Below, piece after piece: positions 32,525-36,735 of a DNA stretch of 36,735 bases; position 1 is the stretch's first letter, and each line of letters begins with the position of its first letter. The translations under genes and the position numbers were made by a program. Origin of the DNA: a virus; the IMG/VR virus record IMGVR_UViG_3300030419_003628, positions 1 through 36,735 of that record; one strand, written 5' to 3'. A model generated the notes under the pieces. That model worked only from the letters and a program-made list of their open reading frames with translations. It did not search any database and was not told the DNA's origin.

Positions 32525-34975
32525 GTGCCACTCAAAAAGCCGTCAGAATTTTATCTTAAGAATCCTTCCACCTCTATGGATGAGGTTAAGGAGGGTCTTA
32601 ATGTTGCTGCACCTGAAAAGATAGAGAATCTTAATGAAGCATTTAATGTTTTTAAGACCAATCTAAATCACATTCAGACAATCTCTGATTTTACTAATAA
32701 GTTTGATACTTTTGAGTCTAATGTTGCTAAGGTAGAATTACTCTCAAAGAATGTAGAAGAGATAAGAGAAAATATTGATAATCTTATTAAGCAAGAAGAT
32801 TTAGATGAAGCCATGACGGCACATCTTTTCTTTGTAGAGGAATCCATAAAGAATGTTCAGGATAAGGTAAAGACTCTAAATTCTAAGAGTGTTTTAAATA
32901 TAAAGGAAGAATTTGCTACTTTATCATCTACCGTAAATAATTTTGTAGGTGTAGAAGTACCTGCATATAAAACATTAATAGTAGATTCTGAAAGAAGAGT
33001 TGATAATAGGTTTAGTAATTTTAAGGAGGATTTGACTTCTCAAGTGGAAGGAGTTCATGATGAGATACGTTCTAGTTTGGTTAAGGTAACTAAGAATATT
33101 GAATCTATTAATGAAAATAAGGTTTCTTCAGTAAAAGAAGAAGTTAAAGGTATTGGTAAAAAAGTAGAAAATTTAGTGGAAAAGGTTTTACCATCCTATA
33201 AAAAGTTCTTTGCCGATACTCAAATAAATGTTGAGGAAAGGATCTCTCACATAAGTGATACAGCACAGGAAATTGAAGATCAATATAAATCCAATATCAA
33301 TGATATAAAAGAAAAATTTGAGGAATTTGTTGGTCAAGAAGTCCCTAAGTATAAGGATCTTTTAGTAGAAACTAAAGTAAAAAGTGAAAAGGAAATCAAA
33401 GAGATATCCAATGAAATGGGTGTTAGAATTTCCCTTATTAATAAGAGTGTTGATGATCTTCAAGAAAGAGTTGATAATAAAGAGATTGAATTAAACGAAA
33501 ATTTAATTAAAAAGACTGAAGAGATTGAGGATCTTCTTGAAGACCTAACTAAATTATCCAACACTTATGACGCACTTCAGAAAGATTTTAGACAAAGAGA
33601 AGTTGCTGAAAGTAAGAAATTGGACGGATATGAAGAGAGATTGACAGGTTTCTCTAAGAGAATTGATAATATAGAAGACACTCTCACAGAAAATATTTGT
33701 GAATTGCAAGAGAATTTAGATACTAGTACTTCTAAGTATTATGAGGAGATGAAGAACACAGTAGTTCCTACTGTAGTTAATTTTGAACAAAGATTATCAT
33801 CTCAACTTAAAGAGATGAAAATAGATTTTGCGGTAAATGAAAAGCATATTAAGGATTTACAAGAAGATTTTAAAGGTATTGTAAATAAGTTACGTGTAGA
33901 TACCTTAGTAGAAGAAGTTACTGAAACTAATGAGAAAAATTTATCTAAGGTAAGAACTGAATTAATTAATAAAGTCAATCGTTTAGAAGAAATTATAGAA
34001 ATATATGAGGAGAAAATTTCACCAAAACTTAAGGTGGGATCTGTTACCATAAATGAGGGTCTATTAAATATTAAACCAGATACAGATAATTCGGATCCTC
34101 TTACTCCTTTAGATCAGAATTATGTAACTGTAGAAGATTTACAAAATCACTATAAACTTTTTATTAATAGAGTTCAGCAACAATTAGCAACTCTTGGTGG
34201 AGGTGGTGAAGTATTTCTTGCACGTATGCAGGATGTTGATGTTGGTGCAGGTATACAAACTAACAATTGGGTTTTAGCATGGGACACTAGTTCGGAATTA
34301 TTTGTTCCTTCCGAAGGTGGTTCTGCTGGTGCTGCGGGTACTTGGGCATCAAGTAGTGTTGGTGTTAGTACCACTAAGAATGTAGGTATAGGAACTGATC
34401 CAAATGCTTCTTATAAGTTATATGTAAGTACTGGAAGTACAGTAGATACTGTTGCTTATTTTGATGGTAGTATTAGTGTTGGTGGAACTACTTATTCTGA
34501 AGATGTCAAGAATATTGATTCTATTGGTATTATTACTGCTCGATCCGATATAAGAGGTTCTGGTAATTTATCCATAACTGGTATTACTACATTATCTTCA
34601 TCAGCAGGAACTGGTGCAGTTAAAACTGGAATGGGAAATACTGCTTTGATTGTTGAGGGTCATGGTCGTATAACTGGTGTTTTAACGGTAGGACAATCAA
34701 GTATTACTATTGATGGAAGTAATAATAAGGTACAAGTTGGTACAGGAATTACTTTAGATGCTGCAAATGGTGTAATCCAAGCACCTGATCTTAAAGTAAC
34801 AGGAACATCTGGAACACTAAATCCACCAGTAATGACTACAACACAAAGAGATGATCTTGACCCCGATACAGGATCTCTTATTTTTAATTCTACAAGTGGT
34901 CAGTTAGAAGTTTGGAATGGAACGTCATGGGCTGGCGTAGGTGCTGTTAATAACCTCACAATATCCAACCTCTAA
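32525..34975 (+). CDS. coiled-coil fibre protein, fibritin/whisker-like candidate (816 aa)
   Basis: Starts with GTG (GTG CCA CTC); the N-terminus reads MPLKKPSEFYLKNP, a form I recall from cyanophage fibre-like proteins. Residues about 30-540 are a long Glu/Lys/Ile/Asn coiled coil, with repeated breaks of the form FVGxEVPxYK (near residues 139, 218, 267 and a weaker one at 411) that look like hinges. The C-terminal ~250 residues are a beta-rich fibre head with IGIITARSDI/ITGITTL-type repeats and a final TTTQRDDLDPDTGSLIFNS / QLEVWNGTSWAGV segment, a common phage fibre ending. In T4 the neck whisker gene wac is just before gp13; here a whisker-like gene lies between gp16 and gp17. It could instead be a tail or side fibre. 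A trimer is expected. Confidence 0.7.
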   Translation: MPLKKPSEFYLKNPSTSMDEVKEGLNVAAPEKIENLNEAFNVFKTNLNHIQTISDFTNKFDTFESNVAKVELLSKNVEEIRENIDNLIKQEDLDEAMTAHLFFVEESIKNVQDKVKTLNSKSVLNIKEEFATLSSTVNNFVGVEVPAYKTLIVDSERRVDNRFSNFKEDLTSQVEGVHDEIRSSLVKVTKNIESINENKVSSVKEEVKGIGKKVENLVEKVLPSYKKFFADTQINVEERISHISDTAQEIEDQYKSNINDIKEKFEEFVGQEVPKYKDLLVETKVKSEKEIKEISNEMGVRISLINKSVDDLQERVDNKEIELNENLIKKTEEIEDLLEDLTKLSNTYDALQKDFRQREVAESKKLDGYEERLTGFSKRIDNIEDTLTENICELQENLDTSTSKYYEEMKNTVVPTVVNFEQRLSSQLKEMKIDFAVNEKHIKDLQEDFKGIVNKLRVDTLVEEVTETNEKNLSKVRTELINKVNRLEEIIEIYEEKISPKLKVGSVTINEGLLNIKPDTDNSDPLTPLDQNYVTVEDLQNHYKLFINRVQQQLATLGGGGEVFLARMQDVDVGAGIQTNNWVLAWDTSSELFVPSEGGSAGAAGTWASSSVGVSTTKNVGIGTDPNASYKLYVSTGSTVDTVAYFDGSISVGGTTYSEDVKNIDSIGIITARSDIRGSGNLSITGITTLSSSAGTGAVKTGMGNTALIVEGHGRITGVLTVGQSSITIDGSNNKVQVGTGITLDAANGVIQAPDLKVTGTSGTLNPPVMTTTQRDDLDPDTGSLIFNSTSGQLEVWNGTSWAGVGAVNNLTISNL

Positions 34976-35550
34976 TGAAAAAGTTTAGAGAGTATATTAA
35001 GGAAGCTGCACCCACTAATGCAACTGGATCACAGATTTCTAATTTTGATCCTTTACTTTTTCCTCAAGATATAGACCTTTTGGATCAGGGATATCAGACT
35101 CCTGCAGAACCTGGATTAAGTAAGTGGGCAAGATGGGCTAACGTATATCCCGTGATGAAAGTATCTCTTGACGACAACTTGGGAGATGGTCCATCTATTG
35201 ATGCAATGGTTCGTGCATCACAGCAATATACTAATATAATGGATAGAAATGTTCAGGACACGATAAAGAAGAACTATTCTAAATTCATGGGAGAATCTAA
35301 AGAAAAGTTGACATGTCCTGATGGTATGAGATATGATAAGAAGTTGAATGCCTGTGTTCCTTTAATCAGTAAATCCAAAACCATTGGACGTTGGTGGGGT
35401 GTAGGAAGACATCATCATCAAACTACTAATGGAAATGGCAACGGTAATGGGTCCGATAACGGTAATGGAAGTGGCAATGGCCATTCTGGCAATGGTAATG
35501 GTGGCAGCAGCAACGGTGGGGGTGGCAATGGTGGTGGAAACGGAGGATGA
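34975..35550 (+). CDS. 191-aa protein with capsid-targeting-like leader and Gly/Asn-rich tail
   Basis: ATG overlaps the stop of the fibre gene (TAATG). The first 11 residues, MKKFREYIKEA, follow the same pattern as the T4 internal-protein capsid-targeting leader (M-K-x-[FY]-x-E-[FY]-I-x-E-A), and IKE|A is a good site for the T4-type prohead protease gp21. That suggests a protein packed in the head and cleaved there, possibly injected with DNA. The middle has DPLLFPQDIDLLDQGY, SKWARWANVYPVMKV and a short Cys motif (CPDGMRYDKKLNACVP). After an RWWGVGRHHH segment the last 40 residues are almost only Asn, Gly and Ser. No enzyme fold is recognised. It lies between fibre and DUF2997 genes. Confidence 0.7.
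   Translation: MKKFREYIKEAAPTNATGSQISNFDPLLFPQDIDLLDQGYQTPAEPGLSKWARWANVYPVMKVSLDDNLGDGPSIDAMVRASQQYTNIMDRNVQDTIKKNYSKFMGESKEKLTCPDGMRYDKKLNACVPLISKSKTIGRWWGVGRHHHQTTNGNGNGNGSDNGNGSGNGHSGNGNGGSSNGGGGNGGGNGG
35428..35547 (+). repeat. low-complexity Asn-Gly/Ser tract
   Basis: Forty codons made almost entirely of GGN, AAY and AGY; it begins as alternating Asn-Gly and becomes Gly-rich at the end of the 191-aa protein. The short-unit repetition (such as GGTAATG and GGCAATGG) makes slippage and length variation likely, and it is GC-richer than its surroundings. Confidence 0.85.
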
Positions 35551-35577: not shown

Positions 35578-35787
35578 ATGGCACAACAGTCTATTAAGTT
35601 TACAATTCGACAAGACGGCACGGTAACTGAAGAAGTTATGGGTGTTGTTGGAGCTGACTGTGAAAATCTCACTAAAAGAATTGAGGAGAGATTGGGAGTA
35701 GTAGAAAGAGTCGAACATAAACCAGAGTACTATCAACAAAAACAAACAGAAGATGTCTCACTTCACATGCATCAAAACCAAAATTAA
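35578..35787 (+). CDS. DUF2997-family protein
   Basis: A 69-aa protein of the DUF2997 family: IKFTIRQDGTVTEEVMGVVG, then C-x-x-x-T-x-x-[IL]-E (CENLTKRIEERLG) and a late PEYYQQK. In cyanobacteria DUF2997 proteins are often encoded beside Ycf35 (DUF1257), and here the two overlap by 35 nt, so the pair appears to have been acquired and kept together. The family has no known reaction; the conserved Cys may bind metal or be redox-active, which is only a guess. The C-terminal His/Gln-rich end (HMHQNQN) is read in the same bases as the start of Ycf35. No clear Shine-Dalgarno. Confidence 0.82.
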   Translation: MAQQSIKFTIRQDGTVTEEVMGVVGADCENLTKRIEERLGVVERVEHKPEYYQQKQTEDVSLHMHQNQN

Positions 35788-36145
35788 AGAAAGACCGTAT
35801 TTGATTGAAGCACTTCAACTCATGGGACATGATGTTGAGGAAAATAAAGTATTGGTTATTAATAATCCATCTCATGCAGAACAGCATCCAGATTTTCATG
35901 CAGAAGTAGCGATTAGAAATGATATTGGATTTAGATGGAATAAGAATCTAGAAACTTATGAGTTAGTTGCTGAACTTGATACTTGGGATTTAGATGTTCC
36001 TGTTAGCAGATTCATTGATAAACTTACTCAACAATATGCTAGAGCAACCCTTCATAACACTGTAAAAGAAGAAGGATTTGAGGTTCAGGAGGAATGGGAA
36101 ATGACTGATAATACCATAGAATTGACAGTTACTCGTTGGGTTTAA
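35753..36145 (+). CDS. ycf35: Ycf35-like protein (DUF1257)
   Basis: A 130-aa homologue of Ycf35/DUF1257, a protein conserved in cyanobacteria and in some algal plastid genomes whose function is not established. The family start MSHFTCIKTKIKERPYLIEAL is clear, and so is the C-terminal half (FIDKLTQQYARATLHNTVKE, then EGFEVQEEW and TIELTVTRWV), which corresponds to the family Q-x-YA...V...EGF...I.L.V.R pattern. The length is normal for the family. The start lies 35 nt inside the DUF2997 gene in a different frame. A cyanobacterial-lineage gene here supports a cyanobacterial host and suggests a host-derived (auxiliary) gene pair. The position between the terminase subunits is unusual compared with T4. 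Confidence 0.85.
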   Translation: MSHFTCIKTKIKERPYLIEALQLMGHDVEENKVLVINNPSHAEQHPDFHAEVAIRNDIGFRWNKNLETYELVAELDTWDLDVPVSRFIDKLTQQYARATLHNTVKEEGFEVQEEWEMTDNTIELTVTRWV

Positions 36146-36175: not shown

Positions 36176-36541
36176 ATGAAATCCTTTAGTCAATTTGAAG
36201 AATCTGTAAAGATAGAAGATGCTAATGGAAATCTATCTGCGGAGATAATCGATATTATTAAACCAGAGCCTCTTAAACCCACTTATAACAATATCCAATG
36301 GGAGGATTTGTCAGAAGTGAGAAGGATGCCTAATTATAATAAGCCTGGAAATATAATACAAATTCATTTAGCATGGAGAGGGAAGACATTTGTTATTCAG
36401 ATGTTTTTTCCTTCAGTTAAGAAACCTTCTAGAAAAGAAGTTATAGACCAGATGCAAAAGGTATATCCTGGTGCTAGACTTTGGAGTTATCATGTGTCTG
36501 AATACGATGCGGGGGAGCCGATTCTTCAAGCAGGAGATTGA
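36176..36541 (+). CDS. 121-aa conserved-looking hypothetical protein upstream of gp17
   Basis: The function is not recognised. The N-terminus MKSFSQFEESVKIEDANG resembles the M-K-x-F-x-x-F leader seen on T4 internal head proteins and on the 191-aa protein of this window, but the cleavage site is poorer (no clear [IL]-x-E-[AG]). The rest is a compact soluble domain: WEDLSEVRRMPNYNKPGNI, IIQIHLAWRGKTFVIQMFFP, RKEVIDQMQKVYPGARLWSYH and a short end GEPILQAGD. The alternating beta-alpha order and absence of membrane segments suggest a small folded domain. It ends 2 nt before gp17, so translation is probably coupled to the large terminase. Similar genes are, as I recall, common just before gp17 in cyanophages. 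Confidence 0.7.
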   Translation: MKSFSQFEESVKIEDANGNLSAEIIDIIKPEPLKPTYNNIQWEDLSEVRRMPNYNKPGNIIQIHLAWRGKTFVIQMFFPSVKKPSRKEVIDQMQKVYPGARLWSYHVSEYDAGEPILQAGD

Positions 36542-36543
36542 TT

Positions 36544-36735
36544 ATGCCAACGATGGATGAGGTTTACCTAGGTAATCCGTTATTAAAAAAAGCGAATGTC
36601 AAGCAAGAATTTACTAAAGAGCAAATTTTAGAATTTGTTGCTTGTAAGAATGATCCTGTTTATTTTGCAAAACAGCATGTAAAGATTGTTAGTTTGGATG
36701 AAGGTCTTGTCCCTTTCCAACCTTATGATTTTCAA
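36544..36735 (+). CDS. 17: large terminase gp17, 5' part
   Basis: The first 64 codons of the large terminase, which carries the ATPase that drives DNA into the head and the nuclease that cuts it; the gene runs off the window before the Walker A motif. The N-terminus (LGNPLLKKANVKQEFTKEQI, then FVACKNDPVYFAKQHVKIV and VPFQPYDFQ) matches the T4-type gp17 pattern, in which NDPxYFAxxHxKI and a following P-[FY]-x-x-YxFQ lead into the ATPase domain. The gene starts 2 nt after the preceding stop, with AGGAG at 36532-36536 as a good ribosome binding site. Confidence 0.9.
   Translation, partial: MPTMDEVYLGNPLLKKANVKQEFTKEQILEFVACKNDPVYFAKQHVKIVSLDEGLVPFQPYDFQ

Follow-up and report, generated by a model that had tools for sequence, protein, structure and literature searches.

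The window analysed here, a virus record of 36,735 nucleotides (IMG/VR record IMGVR_UViG_3300030419_003628, positions 1 to 36,735), carries at 34975–35550 on the plus strand a gene for a 191-residue precursor protein (P0001). The open reading frame is real, and the protein starts with MKKFREYIKEAAPTNATG. It overlaps by one base the fibre-like gene upstream (32525–34975, +), which is the neighbour in most relatives, and SSM2_108, the relative in S-SM2, shows the same overlap. Homologues of gp13 to gp16 lie upstream, and the order on the 3' side is DUF2997, DUF1257, a second small leader-like ORF and the terminase large subunit gp17, of which only the start is present (36538–36735, +) because it is cut by the window end. 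Since the record, a virus fragment of 37 kb, ends in gp17, gp20 to gp23 lie outside it, and a search for the window's own gp23 by way of its gp17 yielded no close relative with both genes. The overlapping DUF2997 and DUF1257 genes (35578–36145) sit amid phage head genes and occupy the same position in L060, L081, L082 and L119. The second small ORF (36176–36541, +), whose homologues precede gp17 in relatives, has the targeting-like N-terminus MKSFSQFEES; it retains F4 and F7, and with Glu at position 8 it has no [IL]xE cut site. An ORF of S-SKS1 (113009) that starts with MKNFKQFLSES appears, by eye only, to be a relative of it with a proper site.

Residues 1–10 of P0001 (MKKFREYIKE; 34975–35004, +) form a capsid-targeting leader that agrees, with identical spacing, with the capsid-targeting sequence of T4 wherever a position has been found to count. 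Targeting of T4 IPIII depends on residues 4 and 7 and its processing on residues 8 and 10, L/I-x-E being the motif behind which gp21 cleaves (PMC9026906); by these rules, F4 and Y7 would serve targeting and I8 and E10 processing. P0001 thus shows both the aromatic residues at 4 and 7, I/L at 8 and Glu at 10 of a T4 internal head protein and the [IL]-x-E near the N-terminus of a gp21 substrate. As read from the sequence, IKE at 8–10 is the only [IL]-x-E within all 191 residues, and the predicted cut, E10|A11 (I8-K9-E10|A11; 35002–35007, +), lies at the same junction as that in gp23 of the pelagiphage Mosig (FLSE|AAPTNATG). A T4-type leader with a gp21-type site had been proposed in the preliminary description, and both proposals were supported: the family conserves exactly those residues that act in T4 IPIII (PMC9026906), the junction is identical with the gp23 maturation site, and each of the nine T4-like genomes tested, all complete or nearly so, encodes a gp21-type protease (PF03420), the window record itself stopping in gp17. 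Prohead targeting followed by a single gp21 cut after Glu10 is a well-supported prediction.

The leader is a property of the family. Among 34 representatives less than 80% identical to each other, the strict form was matched by 22 and the loose form by at least 26, with one mis-trimmed row (L076) scored as a miss. K2, F4, F/Y7, I/L8 and E10 are constrained and positions 3, 6 and 9 are free; Glu10 is conserved in at least 90%, and in many members P1' is Thr, Ser or Gln. About a quarter of the members lack the canonical leader, and the junction is kept behind unrelated leaders in ILRE|SPTN (L009), GPLPE|AAPTN (L088) and NLKE|AAPTN (L096). The first of these resembles the 10-residue N-terminal propeptide of the T4 vertex protein gp24 (MAKINELLRE|S), the shell pentamer protein, for which we saw no further similarity to the family. 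These data widen the range of the T4 targeting leader to take in an abundant marine phage group.

A survey of N-termini for the leader, as suggested in the same description, returned a clear signal: across eight T4-like genomes, the pattern M[KR]x[FYL]xx[FY][IL]xE occurred at 12 N-terminal methionines and at none of 6647 internal ones (Fisher p 1.7e-7), against a chance expectation from residue frequencies of about 1.3e-5 per N-terminus. T4, taken as positive control, gave IPII and IPIII. A looser pattern also picks up T4 thymidylate synthase, so that a single match proves little and the case rests on family conservation. In cyanophages, the pattern picks out the cytidylyltransferase/NMNAT T4-GC190 (MKKFSAFLNEA in S-SM1), which resembles the family in its leader and has been detected in S-SM1 virions (PMC3037559), but differs from it in having an enzyme domain and no gp23 arm. 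Such proteins have been reported in several other cyanophage virions as well, with the caveat of the S-CREM2 authors that co-purification is possible (PMC9602691, PMC10665884). Residence of the 191-residue protein in the head is likely.

The comparison with T4 IPII and IPIII covers the 10-residue leader, F/Y4, F/Y7, I8, E10|A11 and the small, variable nature of the protein. Nothing similar follows the leader: as to homology of the mature part to IPI, IPII or IPIII, the tblastn hits included no T4 record, and there was no significant match to a PHROG or Pfam family. The 191-residue protein would work like a T4 internal protein, with no homology beyond the leader. The T4 internal proteins, moreover, have no copy of the gp23 N-fist, whereas P0001 carries one. 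The similarity to T4 internal proteins that had initially been put forward stood for the leader, while the extension to residue 30, which matches gp23, had been overlooked.

This extension, residues 11–30 (AAPTNATGSQISNFDPLLFP; 35005–35064, +), reproduces the N-fist, with which mature gp23 begins and which occupies residues 66–91 of the T4 protein (PMC7136217). Comparison of the family and gp23 profiles with hhalign aligned 30 columns (P=93, E=3e-7) up to residue 30 and found no gp23 similarity past that residue. Against gp23 of Mosig, the match of residues 10–30 spans the maturation site, FLSE|AAPTNATGSSIANWDPILIS, and includes the NFDP end. When viral contigs were scanned for DNA encoding EAAPTNATG, all 80 among the matches listed were gp23 genes at their maturation sites, and PHROG 696 ('major head protein') was matched by 8 of 50 family members, via the arm where coordinates were displayed. 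Homology of the whole protein to gp23 was rejected: P0001 has no capsid-protein body, the core compared with gp23 at a probability of 0.4, and the similarity is confined to residues 1–30 instead of running over the full length.

The copied N-fist favours a role at the shell, for which it is a plausible anchor. Alternatively, the gp23-like stretch could be a mere extension of the gp21 substrate, in a core factor for assembly that is cut and then lost. The site and flank are indeed those of gp23, and three scaffold proteins of T4 (gp22, gp67 and gp68) undergo degradation and exit the head (PMC9958956). However, P0001 has a single [IL]xE site, and T4 IPII and IPIII as well as cyanophage GC190 have leaders with no arm beyond the site, which indicates that cutting does not require the arm; we consider this alternative improbable.

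Arms of gp23 vary widely among these phages, and the arm of the family protein resembles that of its own genome's gp23. In 13 nonredundant genomes, arm similarity was 0.446 within and 0.267 between genomes (permutation p=0.0003), the idea having been drawn from three of the 13 and the remaining ten being new to it; a larger set of 17 pairs gave p=0.0002, although it includes L087, whose gp23 is cut off and whose pair is to be disregarded. A genome found later and likewise new to the hypothesis (L246) also has an arm that matches its own gp23. Examples are S-SM2, with QPTNAVGNGGYTSSGGQTVAGFD in the family protein and TPTNSVGNGGYTSAGGQTVAGYD in gp23, and G018, with QPTNSGGNPQAYSGAATGTGPVAGF and APTNSGGNPQAYSNAATGSGPVAGF, respectively. 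In S-SM2, 19 of 22 arm residues are identical, and 14 of these 19 use different codons. Recent copying of the arm DNA from gp23 was accordingly rejected for S-SM2 and G018, since most codons differ, which leaves selection on the peptide, or an old conversion followed by drift, as the source of the similarity. Several genomes (G009, G016, L061 and L077) show no such match, as would be expected where exchange of the gene also takes place.

Behind the arm lies a core, residues 31–95 (35065–35259, +; LLDQGYQTPAEPG..VYPVMKVSL..GDGPSIDAMVRAS), which is conserved in the family and has no similarity to gp23. A profile scan of viral contigs found 205 relatives, of which 80 were retrieved, and what follows the core in them varies: nothing, a Cys and Asn-Gly part, DUF192, a basic part or a PHROG 3286 tail. 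In P0001, an exchangeable module at residues 108–146 (35296–35412, +) with C114, C127 and an RHHH start is followed by an Asn/Gly-rich tail at residues 152–191 (35428–35547, +), which is probably disordered (pLDDT <50) and is common to L002 to L005 and L009. The Cys module follows the leader directly in L002 to L005, with no core in between: L003 to L005 consist of leader and Cys module, and in L002 the same leader is fused in frame to the module, the core having been lost at a short CTAA match. An AF2 model of P0001 built with 51 family sequences (pLDDT 56, pTM 0.19) contained only a leader helix, a low-confidence helix at 75–105 and a small hairpin; it is too poor for a fold search, and a search of PDB sequences with the family profile gave weak, scattered matches only. 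DUF192 fusions were seen in L060, L106, L107 and L130, with PF02643 confirmed in L060, L106 and L130, and a stand-alone DUF192-like gene lies near the window's closest relatives, in some cases (L236, L244, L247, L257) adjoining leader proteins.

The changing C-terminal modules, DUF192 and basic parts among them, resemble exchangeable cargo and, together with a leader like that of the T4 internal proteins, could point to an effector injected in the T4 manner, as the preliminary description supposed, in which the leader would load the protein into the head, gp21 would free it and, after entry with the DNA, the variable C-terminal part would act in the host. The most conserved parts, however, are the gp23-like arm and the core, not the cargo, some members (112–120 residues) stop after the core, and the N-fist copy suggests the shell over the free interior; an injected effector is therefore possible, albeit rather unlikely. 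The mosaic C-termini, and the way in which L002 lost its core in frame, might also be read as recombination debris, with pieces of gp23 and of other genes brought together fortuitously next to a fibre gene and no function in the head. Against this, there are more than 200 relatives, the genomic places are three and fixed (beside gp16/gp17, directly behind gp23 and before gp61), the leader is constrained residue by residue and the peptide is kept although codons differ, making debris very improbable. The same genomic places bear on whether the protein is an accessory of the tail fibre, serving as adaptor or chaperone and coupled in its translation to the fibre-like gene: the one-base overlap and the frequent adjacency to that gene in most members fit such a role, but no fibre gene adjoins the members behind gp23 or those before gp61, and leader and arm would be left unexplained, so that we regard it as very unlikely.

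Taking these observations together, we propose the following hypothetical sequence of events, in which leader targeting, one gp21 cut, residence in the head and docking at the shell are jointly the probable explanation: (i) guided by its capsid-targeting leader of 10 residues, the precursor would be co-assembled into the prohead; (ii) the gp21-type prohead protease would cut it once, between Glu10 and Ala11; (iii) the mature protein of 181 residues would be retained in the head; (iv) its new N-terminus, AAPTNATGSQISNFDP, a peptide of the type that forms the N-fist at the start of mature gp23, would probably dock at an N-fist-like site of the shell during maturation and expansion; and (v) the docked protein would hold the conserved core and a lineage-specific C-terminal module, here the Cys/His and Asn-Gly parts. 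The leader, the cut site, the N-fist copy, the modular build and the genomic places are evident from sequence, and cleavage, residence in the virion and shell docking are inferred from them. Docking via the N-fist copy is the putative mechanism that we favour. It suggests that phages may attach other proteins by duplicating the N-terminal peptide of their own capsid protein.

The same arrangement of leader and N-fist copy exists in T4 itself. The 54-residue gp61.1 (NC_000866 18966–19130; L184 467–631, minus strand) consists of MKTFKEFIKE, DMVAGDSGGNPENISIGTTSGAVVNKGP and a Lys-rich end, and aligned with the cut and N-fist region of T4 gp23 it scored 82, the next-best T4 ORF reaching 41 and none of 5000 shuffles matching it. 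The leader-like start with a gp23 N-fist-like stretch is found in T4, SP18 and Mineola, and the N-fist-like part is kept in ten gp61.1 relatives from other Straboviridae, two of which are annotated 'gp23-like' or 'putative major capsid protein'. With their own gp23, covariation of the arm was weak (p=0.08; T4 and eight of the ten relatives), because the gp23 arm hardly varies in Straboviridae. P0001 shares the N-fist copy, and some marine family members with a terminal PHROG 3286 tail occupy the place of gp61.1. P0001 itself differs from gp61.1 (PHROG 1823/2086; PHROG 3286 in cyanophages) in having no match to any of these PHROGs, no Lys-rich tail, an extra core and a position by gp17 rather than before gp61. 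In several Straboviridae, a conserved N-terminal domain of about 110 residues replaces the leader of gp61.1 (L205 77–541, L206 77–544, L208 77–568, L209 98–580 and L212 65–541; PHROG 2086 in L205 and L208).

The link between gp61.1 and the gp23 N-fist is not described in the available portions of the literature found on either; it connects the unstudied gene 61.1 with head maturation and is testable in T4. We tentatively suggest that T4-like phages might carry a general class of N-fist mimics, gp61.1 included, that are sent to the prohead by a leader, cut by gp21, occupy N-fist-type sites of the shell, tether exchangeable cargo and co-evolve with the capsid, an extension that we hold possible without yet leaning towards it.

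That the protein represents an unannotated class, as first supposed, was supported by the members in S-SM2 and S-SKS1, both labelled 'hypothetical protein'. The cyanophage origin assumed at the outset is likely, given relatives in Synechococcus phages and on contigs with pstS-like and hli-like genes. On the unannotated single-cell marine virus contigs AG-345-O18 and AG-341-P01 (L009 3957–4574, L011), the family gene adjoins hli-like genes, and AG-345-O18, the longer contig, carries a pstS-like gene as well.
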